DNA of 64,000 nt from Methylonatrum kenyense (GTDB taxonomy: Bacteria; Pseudomonadota; Gammaproteobacteria; Nitrococcales; Aquisalimonadaceae): assembly GCF_023195885.1 (NCBI RefSeq), contig NZ_JALPKO010000003.1, forward strand, positions 186,001 through 250,000. The letters run 5' to 3'. Position numbers and translations under genes: made by a program. Every line of letters begins with the position of its first letter. Positions within the stretch are counted from its first letter, which is position 1. Shown piece after piece: positions 3,911 through 61,139 of this stretch. The notes below the pieces were generated by a model. That model searched no databases. It saw only the letters and a list, made by a program, of their open reading frames with translations, and was not told where the DNA came from.

Positions 3911-4378
3911 GTGGCAATCGAGATCGAACGCAAGTTTCTGGTGCGCAATGATGCCTGGCGTGACCAGGCACGGCCTGGCCAGCCCATGCGCCAGGGTTAT
4001 ATCGGTACCATGGACAAGGCATCGGTGCGGGTTCGGCAAACGACCGACCGGGCCTGGCTCAATATCAAGGGTGCAACCCTCGGCGTGCAACGCCGGGAGT
4101 ACGAGTATCCGATTCCCGCCGCCGACGCCGAGGAGATTCTCACGGAACTCTGCAGCGGCGCATTGATCGAGAAAACACGATTCGAGGTACCGTTCGCCGG
4201 CCACCTTTGGGAGATCGACGTTTTCGAAGGCGCCAATGCCGGACTGGTGGTGGCGGAAATTGAACTGAGTTCACCGGACCAGCCGTTCCAGCGTCCGGAC
4301 TGGCTTGGCGAGGAGGTCTCCGATGATCCGCGCTACTACAACGCCTGCCTGGTCGAGCATCCCTGGCGCGAGTGGTAG
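3911..4378 (+). CDS. CYTH domain protein (triphosphate tunnel phosphatase-like)
   Basis: This 155-residue single-domain protein begins with EIERKFLV (residues 4-11), the ExExK signature that gives the CYTH/triphosphate tunnel fold its metal-triphosphate site. Charged strands follow, including [17 protein letters not shown] and [17 protein letters not shown], and the length is normal for short bacterial CYTH enzymes that hydrolyse inorganic triphosphate. The substrate is inferred, because adenylate cyclase type IV and thiamine triphosphatase share the fold. It uses a GTG start with AGGCGAGG just upstream. The L,D-transpeptidase gene follows after 6 bp, so it probably heads an operon with the transpeptidase, nagZ and srkA. 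Confidence 0.82.
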
Positions 4379-4384
4379 CGGGTC

Positions 4385-4903
4385 ATGAACGGACATGCAT
4401 CAGCCGGTGAGACATGGATACGTGTGTGTGCCCGGCGGCAGGAGCTGGAACTGCGCCGCGGTGAGCGCTGTGTGCTGCGGCTGCCGGTCTCGACGGCTCT
4501 GAACGGGCTTGGTGAGCAAAGCGGAAGCGGCATGACCCCCCGCGGCTGGCACTGTGTCCGCGCCAGAATCGGTGCCGGCTGCCCATCCGGTGCGGTCTTT
4601 GTCGGCCGCCGCTGGACCGGCGAGATCTGGACGCCGGAGTTGCAGGAGCAACAGTCGGAACGCGACTGGATTCTCAGCCGCATTCTCTGGCTGAGTGGCC
4701 TTGAACCCGGGTTCAACCGCCTGGGCGAGGTCGATACCATGCGTCGATTCATCTATTTCCATGGCTGTCCCGATACCGAGCCGATGGGGGTGCCCCTGTC
4801 CCATGGCTGTATCCGGCTTCGCAACGAATCGGTGATTTCACTATACGAGCGGGTGTCGGTGGGTACCCGGGTCTGGATTGGAGAGGGAGAACCAGCGCCA
4901 TGA
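4385..4903 (+). CDS. L,D-transpeptidase (YkuD/ErfK-type catalytic domain)
   Basis: This 172-residue protein ends in the YkuD catalytic signature: His126 in YFHGCP and SHGCIRLRN with Cys142 as nucleophile. These enzymes make 3-3 cross-links in peptidoglycan or attach proteins to it. Unusually, there is no obvious signal peptide or membrane segment at the N-terminus (MNGHASAGETWIRV), so either export uses another route or the protein works in the cytoplasm, for example on recycled muropeptides. It sits directly before nagZ, a cytoplasmic peptidoglycan-recycling enzyme, and overlaps it by 4 bp (ATGA), which fits the second idea. That placement is inference only. Confidence 0.85.
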   Translation: MNGHASAGETWIRVCARRQELELRRGERCVLRLPVSTALNGLGEQSGSGMTPRGWHCVRARIGAGCPSGAVFVGRRWTGEIWTPELQEQQSERDWILSRILWLSGLEPGFNRLGEVDTMRRFIYFHGCPDTEPMGVPLSHGCIRLRNESVISLYERVSVGTRVWIGEGEPAP

Positions 4904-5937
4904 GTCAATCGGGACAGCTGATGGTCGGCATCGCCGGCCTGGAGCTCAGCGCAGAAGAGTGCCACCTGTTACGGCACCCGCAAATTGCCGGCGTGATCCT
5001 GTTCTCCCGCAACTACCAGGATCCGGAGCAGCTGGCGGCGCTGACGAACTCCATCCACCGGCTGCGCGATCCGGCGCTGCTGATTGCCGTGGATCAGGAA
5101 GGCGGCCGGGTCCAGCGCTTCCGCGACGGCTTTACACGCCTGCCGCCGATGGCGGCGCTGGGTCGCCTGTATGACGTGGACCCGGCGGCGGCCCGCGAAC
5201 AAAGCTATGCCCTGGGCTGGCTGATGGCCGCGGAACTGCGTGCCCTGGGGGTGGATTTCAGTTTTGCACCGGTGGTCGATCTTGCCCGCGGCGTCAGCTC
5301 GGTGATCGGAGACCGTGGTTTCCATGCGCTGCCGGCCGTGGTCAGCGAACTGGCGGCTTGCTGGATCGACGGCATGCGCGAGGCGGGGATGCCGGCCACG
5401 GCCAAGCATTTCCCGGGCCATGGCAGCGTGGCGCCGGATTCGCACCTGGAATTGCCGGTCGACACCAGGCCGGAACCCTCGCTGCGCGACAGCGACCTGC
5501 TGCCGTTCGAGAGCCTGATCCGGCAACAGCGGGTCGATGCCATCATGACCGCTCATGTCGCCTATCCGAAGGCCGATAACCAGCCAGCCAGTTTCTCCCG
5601 CTACTGGATCGGTACCGTGTTGCGGGACGACCTGGGCTTTGACGGCGTCGTGGTCGCGGATGATCTGGACATGGAGGGTGCGGCCGCCCTGGGAGACCGC
5701 CCCGGGCGCGCCCGCGTTGCGCTGGAGGCCGGCAACGATCTGCTGTTGCTTTGCAACTCGCTGGATGCGCGTGAATCCGTGCTGGCGGCAATGCCGTCGC
5801 AACCTGACCCCGCTGCGTCGCGACGTATTGCCGCCATGCGGCGGCCCTTCGATACCAGGACACTGGCGCAGGTGCGGCAGGATCCGCGGGCCAGAACTGC
5901 GCTGCAAGCCTGTCGCGAGTTGCTCCCGGATGACTGA
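4900..5937 (+). CDS. nagZ: Beta-N-acetylhexosaminidase NagZ (peptidoglycan recycling)
   Basis: This 345-residue glycoside hydrolase family 3 enzyme removes N-acetylglucosamine from anhydromuropeptides in the cytoplasm. Key marks are the RVQRFRDGFTRLP loop, VDFSFAPVVDLARG, the family motif KHFPGHG (residues 169-175, carrying the catalytic His) and the nucleophile region VVVADDLDMEGAA. There is no signal peptide, as expected. It is translationally coupled to the upstream transpeptidase (ATGA overlap), and the kinase gene starts 8 bp before its stop codon. Confidence 0.95.
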   Translation: MSQSGQLMVGIAGLELSAEECHLLRHPQIAGVILFSRNYQDPEQLAALTNSIHRLRDPALLIAVDQEGGRVQRFRDGFTRLPPMAALGRLYDVDPAAAREQSYALGWLMAAELRALGVDFSFAPVVDLARGVSSVIGDRGFHALPAVVSELAACWIDGMREAGMPATAKHFPGHGSVAPDSHLELPVDTRPEPSLRDSDLLPFESLIRQQRVDAIMTAHVAYPKADNQPASFSRYWIGTVLRDDLGFDGVVVADDLDMEGAAALGDRPGRARVALEAGNDLLLLCNSLDARESVLAAMPSQPDPAASRRIAAMRRPFDTRTLAQVRQDPRARTALQACRELLPDD

Positions 5938-6925
5938 CGCCCCGGCTGCTGCCGTTCCTCCGTACAAGGGCCTGAATCCCGACAGTATCCTGGCCGCAGT
6001 GGAGTCGACCGGGCTGTGCTGCGATGGCCGCATGCTTGCCCTGAACAGTTACGAGAACCGGGTCTACCAGATCGGCGTCGAGGATGACGAGCCGGTGGTG
6101 GTCAAGTTCTACCGGCCGAATCGCTGGTCGGATGACGCGATTCTTGAGGAGCATGCCTTCTCGCTGGAGCTTGCCGACCATGAGATCCCGGTGGTGCCGC
6201 CGCTGCGCTTCGGGGGGCGAACCTTGCACCATGCCGAGGGTTTCCGGCTGGCCGTCTTCCCACGCCGCGGCGGTCGGATGCCGGATCTGGATCAGGGTGA
6301 TAACCGACTCTGGATGGGCCGTTACCTCGGGCGCCTGCATGCGGTCGGCGCGGCAAAGCCGTTTCATGCCCGTGGCGCACTGACGGTCGGCGAACGCGGA
6401 CATGGGTCGCTGGCAACCATCCTCGACTGCGGCTACCTGCCGGCCGAGCTGTCCGCGACCTTCGAGTCGGTGGCCCGCGACGTACTGCAACGTGTCGAAG
6501 GGGCCTGGCAACGGGCTGGCGACTACGTGCCGATCCGTCTGCACGGCGACTGCCACCTGGGCAACATTCTCTGGACGGACCATGGGCCGCACATCGTGGA
6601 CTTGGATGATGCTGTCTCGGGCCCGGCGATCCAGGACCTGTGGATGCTGTTGTCCGGCGATCGGAACGCGATGCAGGCCCAGATACTCGATATACTTGAA
6701 GGGTACGAGGAGTTTTTCGCCTTCGATCCGGTCCAATTGCACCTGCTAGAGGCGTTGCGCAGCCTGCGCATGCTGCACCATGCGGCGTGGCTCGCCCGGC
6801 GCTGGCACGACCCGGCCTTCCCGCTGGCATTCCCCTGGTTTGCCGAATCACGATACTGGGAAGAACAGATCCTCGCCCTGCGTGAGCAAATGGCCCTGCT
6901 CGATGAGCCGCCGCTGCAGATCTGA
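5930..6925 (+). CDS. srkA: SrkA/RdoA-type serine/threonine protein kinase (YihE family)
   Basis: This 331-residue protein has an aminoglycoside-phosphotransferase-like kinase fold. An N-terminal ATP-binding lobe (ENRVYQIGVEDDEPVVVKFYR with the likely ATP lysine) is followed by the catalytic loop LHGDCHLGNILW (residues 204-215) and the metal motif VDLDDAVSGP near 225. This is the SrkA/YihE stress-response kinase layout. The open frame runs upstream to 5555 through nagZ, but the family start fits the ATG at 5930, overlapping nagZ by 8 bp. E. coli srkA sits beside dsbA; here it sits in a cell-wall operon. Confidence 0.9.
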   Translation: MTDAPAAAVPPYKGLNPDSILAAVESTGLCCDGRMLALNSYENRVYQIGVEDDEPVVVKFYRPNRWSDDAILEEHAFSLELADHEIPVVPPLRFGGRTLHHAEGFRLAVFPRRGGRMPDLDQGDNRLWMGRYLGRLHAVGAAKPFHARGALTVGERGHGSLATILDCGYLPAELSATFESVARDVLQRVEGAWQRAGDYVPIRLHGDCHLGNILWTDHGPHIVDLDDAVSGPAIQDLWMLLSGDRNAMQAQILDILEGYEEFFAFDPVQLHLLEALRSLRMLHHAAWLARRWHDPAFPLAFPWFAESRYWEEQILALREQMALLDEPPLQI

Positions 6926-54371: not shown

Positions 54372-54687
54372 CGGGGAGTTACCTGTCCTGGCAACCTCCC
54401 GCCCTGCGATTCCTCAGCCCGCAGTATCCATGCCCTACCCGCGGCGCCAGGGCCGCTGCCTCTTTAGGTCGCGCCCTAGCCCATACTCGATACTGTAATT
54501 TTGTACAGTTACATTTAAATCATGAAAACGAGAGGTCAAGCGATTACGTGGCCCCAGTGCGAACCATGGTGTAAGTTCTTGGTTTTACGAACCATGTTGA
54601 TATTAAGGTGACATCAGGACCGCGGAGTTATCGAGAGGTCACGAATATGCAATATCGGGGAACGCGGTCTAATCACTGTTGGGTGTC
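54372..54687. other. AttI-like head of the cassette region
   Basis: This 316-bp stretch has no full-size gene. It holds a LexA box (54493-54508), a 29-codon ORF from 54522, a conserved GAGTTATC element, a 14-codon leader ORF with a hairpin (54647-54691) and the junction GTTGGGT at 54678. The order LexA box, short leader ORF, GTT junction, first cassette resembles the attI1 side of class 1 integrons, where PintI has a LexA box and ORF-11 precedes the first cassette. No integrase frame is found to the left. Confidence 0.55.
54493..54508. promoter_or_regulatory. LexA/SOS box
   Basis: CTGTAATTTTGTACAG is a perfect CTGT-N8-ACAG LexA site, with palindromic flanks TA..TT. It lies about 170 bp before the first cassette junction. 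Integron integrase genes usually carry such a box in their promoter; here no integrase remains, so it looks like a relic of PintI. Confidence 0.75.
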
Positions 54688-54691
54688 ATGA
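54647..54691 (+). CDS. Leader ORF copy 1 (MQYRGTRSNHCWVS), translationally coupled to the HNH cassette
   Basis: This 14-codon frame has GAGG (54635-54638) eight nt before its ATG and its TGA overlaps the ATG of the next gene (ATGA at 54688-54691). The peptide shares RSN and surrounding residues with copies 2 and 3. The codons 3-7 are the sequence of a GAA-loop hairpin (54654-54668). A leader that feeds ribosomes into a cassette gene with no ribosome site of its own would resemble ORF-11 of class 1 integrons. The function is inference. Confidence 0.5.
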   Translation: MQYRGTRSNHCWVS

Positions 54692-55419
54692 ACTCTGACC
54701 ATTCACGCTGCTGGGCGCGCTATCGTGCTGACTGTGATCGCGGCATGTCGAAAGAGCATCTGCTTTCGAAGTGTCTGTTTCACGATCAGACTGTTCACGT
54801 GTCTGGCTTCGATTGGTGCATGGGCGAAGAGAAGTGCGTTGGCATCAACTCTCTTCAAAGAAGGTTCCTATGCGAGAAGCACAACAACGACCTTTCAGAC
54901 GCAGATGCTGCCTCTAAGCAAGCGATTGATGCCTTTGAGGCAGGCGGCAGTGAGTTTCTCTTGAATGGCATTCTCTTGGAGCGGTGGCTCGTGAAAACCG
55001 CCGTGAACCTCAGCGTTGGCGGCAACCTTCACATCGGCTATGGCATGAGTAACTCCAAACCGGGATGGCCGAGCCCGTACATGCTCGCAGTAGCGTTTGG
55101 AGACGAGATCCTCTGCGCAAAGATGGGTGCCTACTTTCTTTTCCCTGCAACTCAGTATAAACACCGCACCAGCGAGATTTCGATCGTACCAATTCATCGT
55201 GATGGACAGATCGGAGGGTTCGTGTTTGGTCTCAGAGGGCAGTTCATATTCCTCAGCCTCTATCCCGGGCACGCTCCTCCTTCAGTTGATACGCTCGCGC
55301 CAGGGCTCCTGCCACCGCCAATAGGAGCCGCCGCACTTCATTACCGCCCCGCATCTTTTCGAGTTCAAGTTGCCGGTGGCTCAGAGGGAAAAATTCAGTT
55401 GCGGTGGCCGCACACATGA
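54688..55419 (+). CDS. HNH-like protein, integron cassette 1
   Basis: This 243-residue protein is encoded in a cassette running from the junction at 54678 to attC1. The N-terminal 75 residues look like a zinc-dependent HNH nuclease variant: Cys8 and Cys16, SKEHLLSK (Glu23-His24) and FLCEKHNNDLSDAD (Cys62, His65, Asn66). The rest has strands but no recognised domain. Homing or defence nuclease activity is inferred only from these residues. There is no ribosome site for the ATG other than the overlapping leader ORF. GC content and codons are lower than in the flanking chromosome. Confidence 0.6.
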   Translation: MNSDHSRCWARYRADCDRGMSKEHLLSKCLFHDQTVHVSGFDWCMGEEKCVGINSLQRRFLCEKHNNDLSDADAASKQAIDAFEAGGSEFLLNGILLERWLVKTAVNLSVGGNLHIGYGMSNSKPGWPSPYMLAVAFGDEILCAKMGAYFLFPATQYKHRTSEISIVPIHRDGQIGGFVFGLRGQFIFLSLYPGHAPPSVDTLAPGLLPPPIGAAALHYRPASFRVQVAGGSEGKIQLRWPHT

Positions 55420-55420
55420 C

Positions 55421-55488
55421 TCCCAACCAATCAATCGAGCGGACCTCGCGCACAAGCCGCGCGAGGCCGCTCATTGCAAACGTTAGGG
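55421..55488. other. attC site 1 (end of HNH cassette)
   Basis: The site runs from TCCCAAC to GTTAGGG. The stem pairs GAGCGG-A-CCTCGCGC with GCGCGAGG-CCGCTC, with one extrahelical A, as attC recombination sites need. GTTGGG at the start of cassette 1 (54678-54683) is complementary to CCCAAC here, the pairing expected of one cassette's two ends. Confidence 0.82.
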
Positions 55489-55503
55489 ATAAATGGAATC
55501 GTC

Positions 55504-56352
55504 ATGTCCGGAAATATTTTCAATAAGCTGTGGGTTATAGAATCTTTACCATCAGGTGAGCTTAGAACTGGGAAAAATCTCTTCGACAATCAGCTGGACA
55601 AGGCTAAGCAGGTCCAGCAAGACCTTGTCGTCGAATTCGCTGAGCCAATAACTAAGCCCGAGCTGTTTGACGTATTAGAAAAAATACGAAATGAGGCTTT
55701 GAGCGGAATATATCCAATGATCCACTTTGAGTGCCATGGGTGTGAAGACCGCTTGGGAACTGCTAGCGGAGAACTGGTTGAATGGGATGAAATCAGAGAG
55801 ATCCTTATTGAGATTAACCGAGGGACTAAGCTAAATCTGATGATTGTAATTGCAGCCTGTAACGGTGCCCATCTAATAAAAGTATCTACAAAGCTAGATG
55901 CAGCTCCTTTCTGGGCAATAATTGGTCCAGAGGTCGAAGTAACTGCTGGGCATATTCAGGATAATTTTGGTCGGTTTTATGAGTCCTTCTTTTCAGACCT
56001 CGATGGTGATAAAGCCATAGATATCCTTAATGAAGGGGTAGAGCATCAAGACCGAACCTATCATTTTTTAAGCGCTGCTGGACTATTTTCAAGGGCTTAC
56101 CGAGCCTACCATAAAAGTCACTGTGTCGGGAAAGGGAAGAAAGAAAGGATAGAACGCCTCGTTTCTGAGGTGATGAAAAACCCCGATGTGAAGAGACGTG
56201 GTGTAGCATGGGCCAGTCAGCAAGTAAATAAAGGCCTTGCATCTGAAGATCAGCACTTTGATAAACTCAGAAAAAGGTTCTTCTTCATTGCTGATTTTCC
56301 AGAAAATGATGCACGTTTCCCTTTATCTAAGGGTGATATCGTTGCCACGTAA
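55504..56352 (+). CDS. CHAT/caspase-like protease candidate, integron cassette 2
   Basis: This 282-residue protein has a likely caspase-fold (CHAT-like) domain at residues about 1-190. PMIHFECHG supplies His78-Gly79, and the hydrophobic strand LMIVIAACNGAH supplies Cys119, giving the His/Cys dyad order of the clan. WAIIGPEVEVTAGHIQDNFGRFYESFF matches the following helix and strand. The C-terminal third is basic and unrecognised. CHAT proteases often act in bacterial immunity or programmed death, so a defence role is inferred. The gene is AT-rich and lies between attC1 and attC2, whose ends GTTAGGG/CCCTAAC match. Confidence 0.65.
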   Translation: MSGNIFNKLWVIESLPSGELRTGKNLFDNQLDKAKQVQQDLVVEFAEPITKPELFDVLEKIRNEALSGIYPMIHFECHGCEDRLGTASGELVEWDEIREILIEINRGTKLNLMIVIAACNGAHLIKVSTKLDAAPFWAIIGPEVEVTAGHIQDNFGRFYESFFSDLDGDKAIDILNEGVEHQDRTYHFLSAAGLFSRAYRAYHKSHCVGKGKKERIERLVSEVMKNPDVKRRGVAWASQQVNKGLASEDQHFDKLRKRFFFIADFPENDARFPLSKGDIVAT

Positions 56353-56355
56353 AAT

Positions 56356-56427
56356 CCCTAACAATGCGCTGCTGTCGGACAAATTCTCCGCTGCGCTCCA
56401 AATTTTCCGCAGAGCGCGGCGTTAGCG
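56356..56427. other. attC site 2 (end of CHAT cassette)
   Basis: The 72-bp site runs from CCCTAAC to GTTAGCG. The outer arms pair AACAATGCGCTGCTG with CAGAGCGCGGCGTT, and the inner arms pair CGGACAAATT with AAATTTTCCG. CCCTAAC is the exact complement of the GTTAGGG at the start of the same cassette. It starts 3 bp after the CHAT stop codon. Confidence 0.88.
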
Positions 56428-56647: not shown

Positions 56648-56717
56648 GGTCATCGAGATGCCAGATCAAGTGGTAACGTTCTGATTAAAAGATGGGTCAC
56701 GGTGAAGTCTGGGCGAA

Positions 56718-56790
56718 GTCTGGGACACCCACAAACTTTCACAGACTTTTCCTCAGTGAAGGCCGTGTGCAGTCTGAGGGTGTCCTAGAC
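56718..56790. repeat. GTCTGGGACACCC inverted pair, upstream of the macrodomain gene
   Basis: GTCTGGGACACCC (56718-56730) and GGGTGTCCTAGAC (56778-56790) face each other 47 bp apart, with CCTCAGTGAA inside, as in the pair at 58658. It lies 41 bp before the macrodomain start. It looks like a REP/BIME-type repeat unit. Confidence 0.7.
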
Positions 56791-56831
56791 GTTCTTGAAC
56801 GCCTGTTCTCCGCCAGAGGAGGCGAAAACTG

Positions 56832-57374
56832 ATGAAGACGCGGACAGCACATGGCGTGACAATCGAGTGTGTCCAGGGGGACATTACGGACCAGCCGGAT
56901 ATGGACGCTGTGGTTAACGCGGCCAATGCGGCGTTGCGAACCGGTGGTGGGGTCGCGGGCGCGATTCATCGGGCTGCGGGACCAGGTTTGGAAGCGGAGT
57001 GCCGGCCACTTGCACCGATTCGACCGGGCGAGGCGGTGATAACCGGTGCGCACAAGCTGCCGAACCGCCACGTGATCCACTGCCTTGGCCCGGTCTACGG
57101 AGTGGATGCGCCGTCAGATCGGCTGCTGGCGTCCTGTTATCAACAGGTCCTGCGTCTGGCAGAGGACCATGGCCTCAATGCCATCGCCTTTCCCGCCCTC
57201 TCGACCGGTGCGTTTGGGTATCCGCCGGAACCCGCGACCCGGATTGCGCTGACCACGGTGCTCGAAGCGCTGCCTGACCTTTCGGCCGTCAAGCACGTTC
57301 GCTTCGCGTTGTTCAGCAGCGCCGACCAACAACGATACGAAGACGTTCTTACAGAATTATCGGGAGCGGAATAG
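56832..57374 (+). CDS. Macrodomain protein (O-acetyl-ADP-ribose deacetylase type)
   Basis: This 180-residue single macrodomain binds or hydrolyses ADP-ribose groups. It shows VQGDITDQPDMDAVVNAANAALRTGGGVAGAIH (landmarks; catalytic Asn and the GGGV loop near residue 37), HVIHCLGPVYG and FPALSTGAFGYP near residue 124. This is the MacroD/YmdB layout. GGAGG lies 11 nt before the ATG. GC content is near chromosomal. In defence islands macrodomains can counter ADP-ribosylating toxins; here that is speculation. No attC flanks it. Confidence 0.88.
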   Translation: MKTRTAHGVTIECVQGDITDQPDMDAVVNAANAALRTGGGVAGAIHRAAGPGLEAECRPLAPIRPGEAVITGAHKLPNRHVIHCLGPVYGVDAPSDRLLASCYQQVLRLAEDHGLNAIAFPALSTGAFGYPPEPATRIALTTVLEALPDLSAVKHVRFALFSSADQQRYEDVLTELSGAE

Positions 57375-57884
57375 CCCGGCGGAAAACCGGTAGCCGTATG
57401 GACACCCATAACCGCGGGCGTGGACATCCAAAACCCGGCGCGGGCTGTTGGCTCTCGCAAAGGCCGGGTGAATCTGGCTGGCCGGGGTAAAGTCTGGGAC
57501 ACCCTCAGATTTTGGAGCTTGGTCCGGACTGGAGTGGAGAGTCGGACGCGCGGCTTGGCGGCTTTATGAGGTGCCTTCCAAGTGGTTATGCCGTCGACAA
57601 GGGGTGATTTGTGTGTGAGATTTCACCGGAAATCGCACTTTTTTTAAAGCCTTTGCTTCTTTCATTTTGTTTGGAGTGTGTTGTCTTTAGTAAAAGGAAA
57701 AAGTGATTCTGGCGTGTCATTGACAAGCGCGATGAGCCATTCCGATTCAGGAGCAATACCGTAAGTCTTTTTGTTTTATAGAGGGAAGTTTGGGGATATC
57801 TCGGATTTTATCGGCTAGTTGTTGCGACGTCCTCGTTTATTTTCGCGAGGTGACCCTGGCGGCGATTGAGTTATCGAGGGGCTC
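57375..57884. other. Gene-free stretch holding a degenerate copy of the interrupted 70-codon ORF
   Basis: From 57492 (GTCTGGGACACCC) to about 57785 this region is recognisably the same sequence as 60534-61100 without the GGAAAC element: TTTTGGAGCTTGGTCCG, CAAGGGGT, AAAGCCTTTGCTT, GTGTTGTCTTT, GGCGTGTCATTGACAAGCGCGATGAG and GAGCAATACCGT are shared. No intact gene is present. From 57785 to 57870 I see only AT-rich spacer before leader copy 2. Confidence 0.6.
57608..57780 (+). pseudogene. Degenerate paralogue of the 70-codon ORF (no insertion)
   Basis: Starting at the GTG before CEISPE the frame reads VCEISPEIALFLKP, gains stops (TGA, TAG) and has 1-nt and 2-nt deletions relative to the 60.65-kb ORF, yet keeps RVIDKRDEPF and RSNTVSLFVL. 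The GGAAAC element is absent here: TTTAGTAAAAGGAAAAAG lines up with TTTGGTTAAAGGAAAAAC around the other copy's insertion. This is a natural empty-site comparison. Confidence 0.6.
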
Positions 57885-57890
57885 ATGAGT

Positions 57891-58013
57891 ATGGAAAATC
57901 GCCGAAGGCGATCTAATCTTTGCTATACGGCCTCGGCTGGCGGCATTCTTGGCGTGCGGAACGTCTTGGACACCCACAGATTTTCGGTGCCAGAAGGTCA
58001 TGTTGCTGCGTGA
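57891..58013 (+). CDS. Leader ORF copy 2 (begins MENRRRRSNLCY)
   Basis: This 40-codon frame (or 42 codons from ATG 57885) has GAGGGG at 57876-57881 and shares M, R, R, S, N with leader copies 1 and 3 at the same positions. Codons 3-8 form a perfect 6-bp hairpin ATCGCC-GAA-GGCGAT (57898-57912). Both strands of this stem differ from those of copy 3 while still pairing. It runs through a GTCTTGGACACCC repeat and ends 89 bp before the lipoprotein gene. It is unlikely to be a functional protein by itself. Confidence 0.35.
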   Translation: MENRRRRSNLCYTASAGGILGVRNVLDTHRFSVPEGHVAA

Positions 58014-58102
58014 GTCACTGCGCTGGGGTCCACGTGCCAAACAGAGAAACCGCACTATATAGCGAGTCGGTTGCACTCGTATGTTGGTGGTGGAGGGGCA
58101 TC

Positions 58103-58585
58103 ATGGTAGGCCATCAAAGGATCCGTCCAGCAGATCACAAATCCATCGTACGGTCTTGGTCGGCCTTCGTTGCGGCGCTCGCGGTGACGAGTTGCGGAGG
58201 CACCGCCGATGATGGAGACATTGAAGAGCTGAGTGCCGCGATTGTCGAGGCCACGGTCAACATCCCCTCACGAAGCTTCGCTGACTCGATTGGCTCGATC
58301 ACGTGTGATGCGTTCTTCGAGCTAATGTTACGCGACGAGCTGTATAGGGCACAGACGCTGGTGCCCTTAGAGCAGCGGTACTTGGAGCTGGCTGGCGCAG
58401 TGGAACTAAACGCCATTTTCGAGGAGTTAGGTCGAGTATCCGACTGGGACTGGTTAGAGGAGGTTTTTACGCGCGCAGAGGACTGCGATATCTCAACACG
58501 GTTTGATACCGCGGGGATCGAACCCAGCCCAACTCCGCTTGCCGATGCGCTCGCAGCCCAAATGATCGAGCAACTGAGTCGCTAG
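58103..58585 (+). CDS. Uncharacterised putative lipoprotein
   Basis: This 160-residue protein begins after a strong GGAGGGG (58092-58098). A short hydrophobic stretch WSAFVAALAVTSCGG ends in a weak lipobox (VTSC, about Cys33), followed by an acidic helical part (DDGDIEELSAAIVEATV, LYRAQTLVPLEQRYLELAGAV). I recognise no family. It lies in the cassette island between repeat units, and the attC that would show it to be a cassette is not visible. The frame is open further upstream but the ribosome site sets the start. Confidence 0.55.
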   Translation: MVGHQRIRPADHKSIVRSWSAFVAALAVTSCGGTADDGDIEELSAAIVEATVNIPSRSFADSIGSITCDAFFELMLRDELYRAQTLVPLEQRYLELAGAVELNAIFEELGRVSDWDWLEEVFTRAEDCDISTRFDTAGIEPSPTPLADALAAQMIEQLSR

Positions 58586-58657
58586 CTGTACACGTAACAA
58601 TCGAGCAATCGAGGACATCCTCAGGTTTTTCGCTAGTCGTGTCCCTAGCTTGACCGA

Positions 58658-58732
58658 GTCTGGGACACCCTCAGATTTTTCCTCAGTGAATCTCCTGTTT
58701 CCTACAGTCCGAAATTTGAGGGTGTCCCAGAC
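58658..58732. repeat. GTCTGGGACACCCTCA inverted pair, BIME-like
   Basis: GTCTGGGACACCCTCA (58658-58673) and TGAGGGTGTCCCAGAC (58717-58732) are perfect 16-bp inverted arms enclosing a 43-bp middle with TTTTTCCTCAGTGAA, shared with the pair at 56718. A decayed unit (GAGGACATCCTCAGGTTTTT) lies at 58611-58630. Confidence 0.75.
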
Positions 58733-58808
58733 TTCCCAGACTTCCGTTCCAATCTATGTCGGTATTACGGCGACAGGCAGATCGCGGAGTTATCTGGAGG
58801 TCACGAAT

Positions 58809-58844
58809 ATGCAATATCGCGGAACGCGGTCTAATTACTGGTAG
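58809..58844 (+). CDS. Leader ORF copy 3 (MQYRGTRSNYW)
   Basis: This 11-codon frame has GAGG at 58797-58800 and is identical to copy 1 for its first nine residues. Codons 3-7 hold the hairpin ATCGCG-GAA-CGCGGT (58816-58830). It ends beside GGTAGCC (58840-58846), which is one base from the GTTAGCC expected at the start of the next cassette. No in-phase coupling to the next gene is present here; that gene has its own weak AAGGAGAA site. Confidence 0.4.
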   Translation: MQYRGTRSNYW

Positions 58845-58872
58845 CCGCCGTAAGGAGAAGATCTAGGCTGTT

Positions 58873-59271
58873 ATGGATAAGAAATCACTTCGGGAACGCA
58901 TTACGGAAGAAGATACGCTGCTGTCAAGCAGAACGCTTGCGTTCTTGCTTGCCAATGGTTTCTTGATTGCAGCGCTTGGTATAAGCGGCGTGGAATTCGA
59001 GCGAAAGGCTATCGGAATCCTTGGAATCTCTCTGACCATAATTTGGTTTTGTATAGGGTGGCAGGTTCGGAGAGCTATTACAGCTCTTCATGAGATATAT
59101 CATGAAAATTTTCCTGATGATGAAGTCAATAGGGCCGTCTTTTCTCGGATATTTTGGAAGCGGAAGCTATTGGGTACGGTGCTTGGCCCCACAGAACTTA
59201 TAACGGCTTGGCTTCCCTTGGTTGTTCTTCTTGTTTGGCTTTCCATAAATGCAAACATGCATTTCGGCTAA
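58873..59271 (+). CDS. Small membrane protein, integron cassette
   Basis: This 132-residue protein has three hydrophobic segments (residues about 22-39, 45-63 and 108-125), separated by charged loops. It has no recognised family. It starts 27 bp after the probable cassette junction GGTAGCC and its TAA lies inside the first core box of attC3 (GGCTAAC). The start box and the attC box are complementary apart from one base, so I read 58840-59318 as one cassette. The sequence is AT-richer than the chromosome. Confidence 0.6.
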   Translation: MDKKSLRERITEEDTLLSSRTLAFLLANGFLIAALGISGVEFERKAIGILGISLTIIWFCIGWQVRRAITALHEIYHENFPDDEVNRAVFSRIFWKRKLLGTVLGPTELITAWLPLVVLLVWLSINANMHFG

Positions 59272-59324
59272 CAAAGGCATGGATCGGACGCGCTAAAGCG
59301 CACCGCTCATGCCCGGCGTTAGCG
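59266..59324. other. attC site 3 (end of membrane-protein cassette)
   Basis: The 59-bp site runs from GGCTAAC to GTTAGCG, with stem arms GGCATG/CATGCC, CGG/CCG and GCGC/GCGC around a TAAA loop, and unpaired bases between arms. Short attC of this size are typical of many gammaproteobacterial arrays. Confidence 0.85.
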
Positions 59325-59595
59325 GAAGTCTGGAACATATCTGGACGCCTCCCCGGACGCAACGGGTGCGAGGTGATGAAGCAGTTGGTTCGTAGACATA
59401 TATCCGGCGTCTTTCGAAGGGACCATGTTCAGTAGTCGATTCTGAATAAGGCATTCACGCCGTGATTGGGTGGCTGGTTGCGCGGCCGGTGGCCGGTATC
59501 GGCGCTGATGTGGTCTCCGGCAGGCGCTGGACGATGCGCCAGAGCTGGTGAAGTCTGGGACACCCTCAAAGTCCTTTCGATCAGGAGTGACACTA

Positions 59596-60009
59596 ATGAG
59601 TGGCAGTTCAAAAGGTAGCTGTTTGTGTGGTGAGGTCGCCTACAAGATCACCGGAAATATTGGAATTTTTCAATATTGTCATTGCTCACGTTGCCGCAAG
59701 TTTACCGGTAGCGCACATGCGTCAAATCTATTTGTCGCTCCTGATCAGTTTTCTTGGCTTAAGGGGGAGGCGCTGGTGGGTTATTATTCGCCAGAAGACG
59801 CGAAGCATTTTGCCAGCTCATTTTGCAAGCTGTGCGGCTCATCATTGCCGTGGCGATCGAAAAGCGGAAAAGTGGTGGTTGTTCCGGCTGGGACCCTCGA
59901 TGAGCACCCAGGCATAGAGCCAGTTCAAAACATATTCTGTGCATCAAAAGCTGAATGGTATGTACCTCCAAGTGAATTGCCTGAATATGATGAATTGCCA
60001 AATAAATGA
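59596..60009 (+). CDS. GFA family protein (Mss4-like, zinc-binding)
   Basis: This 137-residue protein has the GFA layout: GSCLCGEVAYKITG (first Cys pair, near residue 9), YCHCSRCRKFTGSAHASNLFV (landmark; second cluster) and FCKLCGSSLPWRSK (third pair), a zinc fold shared with glutathione-dependent formaldehyde-activating enzyme. Most such short proteins have no proven activity. AGGAG lies 8 nt before the ATG at 59596; a longer frame from 59548 starts inside the repeat GTCTGGGACACCC (59553-59565). No attC lies after it. Confidence 0.85.
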   Translation: MSGSSKGSCLCGEVAYKITGNIGIFQYCHCSRCRKFTGSAHASNLFVAPDQFSWLKGEALVGYYSPEDAKHFASSFCKLCGSSLPWRSKSGKVVVVPAGTLDEHPGIEPVQNIFCASKAEWYVPPSELPEYDELPNK

Positions 60010-60070
60010 TGCGCAGAAAGTCTAGGACACCCACAGGTTTTCAACGAAAACCGAAAGGGAGGCGCATGCG

Positions 60071-60520
60071 ATGGGCGTAACACTGAGGAGGATCACCCGG
60101 GAAAACTTCGAGGCGGTCATCGCGCTTGAGGTAGAGACGTCACAGCGTGGCTATGTCGCTGACAACGTGTACTCCATTGCTGAATCGAGCTTTCATCCGA
60201 CCTATCAGCCACGGGCTATCTGTTGCGGAGGAGAAGTCGTCGGCTTTCTCATGTACGAATGCTTTCATCAGGACGACCGGCCGCCTGCCTACAATATCTT
60301 CCGTCTCATGGTCGACCGACGGCACCAGGGAAGAGGCATAGGGTACAAGGCGATGCGGTGCCTGCTGGACGAGATCAGGGCACGCGGTCCCTTCGAGAGG
60401 ATTGCAATCTGCTACGTGCCCAGTAACCAGGTCGCTCGGGACTTCTACGCCAGTTTCGGTTTCCAGGAGACGACGCTGAATGAGGACACCGGAGAAGTCA
60501 TCGCGGAGATCCGAGGGTGA
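60071..60520 (+). CDS. GNAT family N-acetyltransferase
   Basis: This 149-residue enzyme has the GNAT fold: LRRITRENFEAVIALEV at the N-terminus, GGEVVGFLMYE (beta 2-3), the acetyl-CoA loop RRHQGRGIGYKAMR near residue 88 (Q/RxxGxG/A) and NQVARDFYASFGFQET. The opening QRGYVADNVYSIAES resembles diamine/spermidine acetyltransferases, but the substrate is not shown. GGGAGG lies upstream, right after the repeat GTCTAGGACACCC (60020-60032). Confidence 0.88.
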   Translation: MGVTLRRITRENFEAVIALEVETSQRGYVADNVYSIAESSFHPTYQPRAICCGGEVVGFLMYECFHQDDRPPAYNIFRLMVDRRHQGRGIGYKAMRCLLDEIRARGPFERIAICYVPSNQVARDFYASFGFQETTLNEDTGEVIAEIRG

Positions 60521-60652
60521 AAAGTCTAGAACGCTTAGAACACCCACAGATTTTTGGAGCTTGGTCCGCCCTGGTATCGAGGGCCTGGTATGCAGCTTCG
60601 TGTCCGCATAAGAGGTCCTTGAAGTGATGGTGCCGTTGGCAAGGGGTAGCGT

Positions 60653-61139
60653 GTGTGCGAAGTTTCGCCGGAAAATGTGCCTCTGTTGAAAGCCTTTGCT
60701 TCCCTCATGCCGCTTGGCGGCGTGTTGTCTTTGGTTAAGGAAACACTGATCTATTCCCGCGTCTGCGCCCGAGACCGGTTTTGGTCATCTGGCAAGGCGC
60801 GGTGCCGGTTCGGTAGCCGTCGCTACCGGGCCGGTGACGCAACACAGCCAGGGGCCAAAACCGGCCGGGCCCTTCGGGTTGGGCCGCATTTTCCCCGAAT
60901 GCTGCGTTGCGCTGCTTGACCGCAGAATCACTGCGGCGCTGCGCAGCGCGCCGTGCCTCGGAAAAAATGCGAACTCCAACGCAGGCGCGCGAATAGATCA
61001 GTGTTTCCTTAAAGGAAAAACGTATTTCAGGCGTGTCATTGACAAGCGCGATGAGGCATTCGGGTTCTGGAGCAATACCGTCGGTCTTTTTGTTATAGGG
61101 ATATCGTGCTGGGTTGGGATGGTTCTTTGTCAGGCATGA
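60653..61139 (+). pseudogene. Small membrane-like ORF split by a MITE-like element
   Basis: The first part (60653-60738) reads VCEVSPENVPLLKAF.. and the second (61013-61139) reads GKTYFRRVIDKRDEAFGFW.. then GLFVIGISCWVGMVLCQA. Deleting 60739-61012 (the element plus one TTAA) joins them exactly in frame as 70 codons. AAGGGG before the GTG supports an expressed start. The C-terminus is hydrophobic, and the protein is unknown. A degenerate uninterrupted copy lies at about 57608. Confidence 0.65.
60739..61008. mobile_element. MITE-like element, copy 3 (270 bp) with TTAA target duplication
   Basis: The ends GGAAACACTGATCTATTC are matched on the opposite strand, extending with two mismatches to about 28 bp. 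TTAA flanks both sides (60735-60738, 61009-61012). The interior has paired GC-rich palindromes such as GCCAGGGGCC and TACCGGGCCGG. No transposase is encoded, so mobilisation would need an enzyme from elsewhere. It interrupts the 70-codon ORF. Confidence 0.82.

Follow-up and report, generated by a model that had tools for sequence, protein, structure and literature searches.

An integron-type gene cassette in the window (the 64,000-nt stretch of DNA analysed here) encodes a protein that is best read as belonging to a small, unannotated family of stand-alone CHAT-like cysteine endopeptidases. The kind of protease is itself known; the carrier, an integron cassette, is unusual for such a family. 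Our full proposal is a compact clan-CD endopeptidase with a His78-Cys119 dyad that is latent in the cell and acts as an infection-triggered anti-phage effector, and we give it a probability of about 0.55. In bacterial immunity, CHAT and caspase proteases are known mostly as components of larger assemblies (CRISPR, gasdermin, cyclic-nucleotide signalling). With a complete protease in a single small cassette, a caspase-like effector would be portable, and one could test directly whether such a protease defends the cell unaided or depends on a sensor.

Relationship to CHAT and caspase proteases

The protease gene occupies 55504..56352 on the forward strand and encodes 282 aa, exactly the open reading frame put forward in the preliminary description; its assignment draws on homologue alignment, profile comparison and dN/dS ratios of 0.22-0.25. 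The predicted catalytic His78 (HFECHG; codon at 55735..55737, + strand) and the predicted nucleophile Cys119 (AACNGA; codon at 55858..55860, + strand) had been proposed as a dyad. Both are invariant across eight homologues of 21-81% identity, and their constancy among homologues, singled out beforehand as a check, holds in every one. The other invariant positions of the eight-member alignment are P71, I73, H74, W94, N105, F158, Y159, and G209. Two segments following the Cys had also been read as caspase-like: FYESFF is borne out by the invariant F158-Y159 pair, whereas WAIIGPE is loosely conserved. The His-Cys spacing is 41-43 among the homologues, and HA replaces HG in one relative. The pattern of clan CD, a conserved dyad of His-(Gly/Ala) and then Cys, is thereby present.

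The protease core, residues 1-185 (55504..56058, + strand), is the part common to the shortest homologues, and the CHAT match extends over HHalign columns 64-181. The C-terminal ~97 residues (56059..56349, + strand) are basic and predicted to be helical, with a net charge of +8 compared with -15 for the core, and are missing from two short relatives. The corresponding tail of the Klebsiella relative has a sub-threshold HMG-box match (E 0.00097).

Standard libraries leave the window protein unassigned. PADLOC and NCBIfam return no match at E values of up to 10, and neither CHAT (PF12770) nor peptidase C14 (PF00656) is matched in Pfam; the nearest Pfam family is Peptidase_C13 (PF01650), at 14.9 bits and E 0.02, under its gathering score of 22.8 bits. 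A PDB search with the single sequence also yields no assignment. Comparison with CHAT and C14 profiles, suggested in the preliminary description, is more informative. With comparison profiles built from domains in genomes of the same class, HHalign relates the family profile to CHAT with a probability of 89.5% (score 49.4, 112 columns) and to C14 with 86.2% (score 45.5, 78 columns), and H78 and C119 align with the catalytic residues in both matches. The maxima from 239 column shuffles are 21.3 (CHAT) and 20.1 (C14), and the reversed profile scores about 13; CHAT and C14 themselves score 79 against each other. The only PDB match of the family profile is weak (8tl0, E 2.3) and has the His and Cys in register; this structure is a SAVED-CHAT protease (PMC11417357). 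Two AlphaFold models, with three input sequences, are poor (pLDDT 40-41), so fold matches are taken as supportive only and never as proof. Foldseek puts caspase-2 first for both of these low-confidence models (E about 0.03), and VIA-align is uninformative, with caspases and acetyl-CoA carboxylase tied at Z of about 6. Profile similarity and the aligned dyad strongly suggest that the window protein belongs to the CHAT/caspase-like cysteine proteases.

The cassette and its surroundings

The gene cassette spans 55483..56421 on the forward strand (939 bp, from TTAGGG to GCGGCG), with borders placed by the attC core sites and by the start of homology in a Pseudomonas copy. The attC of the preceding cassette (55423..55486, + strand) sets the left border, and the attC of the protease cassette itself (56356..56427, also delimited as 56358-56425, + strand; R'' CCCTAAC, R' GTTAGCG) sets the right. 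R'' is complementary to the 5' GTTAGGG of the cassette, as is expected if the cassette once closed into a circle. The hallmarks of an integron cassette, complementary R''/R' at the end and single recombination borders, are both found. The cassette ends recognised at the outset are real, with attC on both sides, and the gene is indeed AT-rich, with 43% GC compared with 63% for the window. Seven plasmids from other genera, among them Vibrio, Shewanella, Marinobacter, and Methylomonas, carry sites that are 82-95% identical to the final 64-71 bp of the cassette (its attC), with 84-95% identity for those on Shewanella and Vibrio plasmids; the genes around them are unrelated in three regions (two from Shewanella, one from an uncultured bacterium).

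An active integron requires an integrase in the same genome. In the window's own genome, all matches to model TIGR02249 are Xer-like, partial and below the cut-off, and the locus is therefore a cassette remnant, a small group of attC sites lacking a convincing integrase. A promoter scan reveals no forward promoter-like site within the cassette or just before it.

Several other features lie nearby. The preceding cassette-like gene (54679-55419, 246 aa) resembles an HNH-type nuclease by eye, has no Pfam match at E 0.01, and ends in the attC at 55423-55486. Just 3' of the cassette is a macro-domain (ADP-ribose-binding) gene (56832-57374, E 1e-39). A small membrane protein with a sub-threshold Pfam 8xMP match (58873-59271, E 5e-5) is followed by an attC-like hairpin at 59268-59322, the third attC in the window. 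A dispersed intergenic repeat of ~30 nt, GTCTGGGACACCC[AT]CAGATTTT, occurs within 56700-60560, and its core has 8 matches with at most one mismatch, compared with 0.23 expected. Around the cassette region there are two pairs of direct repeats (54585-54678 with 58747-58840, 94 nt; 57691-57778 with 61010-61097, 88 nt), 82-85% identical.

Relatives, their neighbourhoods and their spread

Cobetia amphilecti has a copy 81% identical to the window gene (dN/dS 0.25), and a Pseudomonas MAG has a partial copy that is 94% identical (dN/dS 0.22). The Pseudomonas copy keeps GTTAGGGATAAATGG, and its homology to the window begins exactly there, at GTTAGGG; downstream of the Cobetia gene lies a decayed attC that is still clearly alignable. 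The two copies are the same cassette as in the window. The lone gene is under purifying selection (dN/dS about 0.25). An NTPase gene lies 62-83 bp upstream of both copies, encoding 1284 aa in Cobetia and truncated in Pseudomonas, and the Cobetia NTPase matches PD-Lambda-4_A with 1896 bits. PD-Lambda-4 is listed among P-loop NTPase systems (PMC10952713). In E. coli, PD-Lambda-4_A is followed by PD-Lambda-4_B; we rejected the idea that the window protease is PD-Lambda-4_B, as the two proteins are unrelated. With a junction that breaks at the border of the cassette, capture behind the NTPase before the Cobetia and Pseudomonas lineages split is the simplest explanation. These loci may be a snapshot of the assembly of a two-gene system.

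Other relatives have different neighbours. The chromosomal copy of genome G132 is embedded in a type I RM operon, preceded by hsdM, a DUF1016 nuclease gene and hsdS, which it overlaps by 8 bp, and followed by a KAP NTPase gene and an hsdR-like gene. In R. tropici, the protease gene overlaps a small upstream gene by 4 bp, the gene that follows after 72 bp encodes a CyanoTRADDas_TM-domain protein (E 7e-14), and Gabija GajAB is about 10 kb away. Positions 4111-6412 of this plasmid locus (L005) form a possible three-gene operon of a Rap1a/Tai-annotated small protein, the CHAT-like protease and the CyanoTRADDas_TM membrane protein. A reverse transcriptase in Rhizobium CCGE532 was considered as a partner and rejected: its frame appears to be part of an inserted element, and the insertion removes the N-terminus of a gene near-identical to that of R. 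tropici. In B. ubonensis, a CBASS cyclase and phospholipase lie about 2 kb from the protease. The neighbours of the Cupriavidus, L011, and L029 relatives include no recognised defence gene. Independent relatives share no gene arrangement, so guilt by association rests on few loci. As a set, the contexts of the relatives point to defence cargo.

The preliminary description held that the gene stands alone. This is correct within the window and does not extend to several relatives: next to them lie large NTPases, type I RM operon genes or a membrane protein, and a partner may therefore be needed. The protease could accordingly be one half of a two-part system, the effector, with an NTPase sensor or a membrane effector as the other half, and the window copy an orphan that is inert by itself or recruits a partner from elsewhere in the cell. 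The positions directly behind PD-Lambda-4_A, between hsdS and the KAP NTPase, and ahead of the CyanoTRADDas_TM protein all speak for this arrangement. We nonetheless consider it unlikely: the candidate partners are mutually unrelated, the exact break of the NTPase junction at the cassette border looks like chance capture, the second PD-Lambda-4 gene of E. coli has no relationship to the protease, PD-Lambda-4_A is not found in the window's own genome, and selection maintains the gene on its own. A related suggestion, which we offer tentatively and hold to be doubtful, is that cassette- and plasmid-borne CHAT-like proteases form an interchangeable effector module, repeatedly plugged into unrelated sensors (the PD-Lambda-4_A NTPase, a type I RM system with a KAP NTPase, a TRADD-associated membrane protein).

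Relatives of the window protease are rare, patchy, and mobile. With tblastn, relatives with 27-34% identity are found on 20 plasmids, and genome searches added two full relatives and one divergent short relative. Three weak matches from a single-protein genome search (L012-L014) overlie unrelated genes and were dropped. Sixteen Klebsiella plasmids carry a relative, most of them IncFIB plasmids of about 110 kb, which are presumably SSU5-like phage-plasmids. The protease slot lies between two fixed genes, and other plasmids hold a GNAT, DUF4041 or DUF2513 gene there. This variable cargo slot (L007, 6917-9239), near repB and an SbcD-like gene, is possibly a defence hotspot.

Such a slot, together with the occurrence on other large plasmids and in a cassette, would also suit a protease that serves competition between mobile elements, through superinfection exclusion or counter-defence, rather than protection of the host. 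This explanation seems improbable, given that searches with four family members find no copy among 50,697 phage records and scanned IMG/VR contigs, and that the chromosomal copy within a type I RM operon agrees with a role in host defence. A peptidase for stress response or housekeeping, unconnected with phage and travelling on mobile DNA by chance, would be in keeping with the missing defence-library match, with the location of L029 between rplL- and rpoB-like genes and with the ordinary genes around L011. A housekeeping role is ill-suited to the patchy, mobile distribution, however, and the gene is very rare: one draw of the phylum, with 397 other genomes, gave 3 that have a relative, one of them divergent. 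We hold this role to be improbable too. That the resemblance is misleading and the protein is an alpha/beta domain that is inactive or acts in another way, as the low-confidence models and the missing Pfam CHAT and C14 matches would allow, is the least probable explanation in view of an invariant dyad in the right order and profile similarity far above that of shuffles.

Proposed role and comparison with known systems

Drawn solely from the neighbourhoods of its relatives, the role of the protease is probably anti-phage defence. We propose that the cassette product, a cysteine endopeptidase of CHAT/caspase type that is built around the His78-Cys119 dyad and ends in a basic, predicted helical tail, would be kept inactive in healthy cells and switched on by infection, with the trigger perhaps acting via the tail or a partner NTPase. 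The activated protease would then cleave one or a few proteins of the host, the phage or a partner, and this cleavage might kill or arrest the cell ahead of phage release. A one-gene abortive system is a possible reading. Bacterial caspases that are operon-linked to STAND NTPases have been described as conflict systems (PMC8195603), and a review puts at about 10% the share of V. cholerae integron cassettes that conferred phage defence when expressed (PMC12409362). Both the STAND NTPase-linked caspases and the frequent phage defence from expressed cassettes make the defence role plausible.

The integron cassettes for phage resistance (Darracq 2025; Kieffer 2025, both summarised in PMC12409362) are similar in being small single genes in a cassette with an attC, and none of those in the review passage used here is described as a CHAT/caspase protease. 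PD-Lambda-4, a two-gene E. coli defence system, resembles the Cobetia and Pseudomonas loci, in which the copies are directly behind a PD-Lambda-4_A homologue. It differs from the window locus in that the protease is unrelated to the _B protein and no A gene is found in the window's genome. Peptidase C14 (caspase/metacaspase, PF00656) has the same clan-CD dyad order, and the HHalign probability of 86.2% and the caspase-2 match of the rough model are consistent with kinship, but the score is lower and the alignment shorter (78 columns) than for CHAT, and there is no Pfam match.

The CHAT proteases (PF12770) include SAVED-CHAT (8tl0), TPR-CHAT/Csx29 of Craspase, and Borvo, the last a single-gene CHAT defence protein. 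They share with the window protein the order of the His and Cys motifs, the FY-containing segment after the Cys, and profile similarity. Unlike them, the window protein falls below Pfam detection and is without a SAVED, TPR or CRISPR partner; it consists of a core of about 185 residues and a basic tail, carried as integron cassette cargo.
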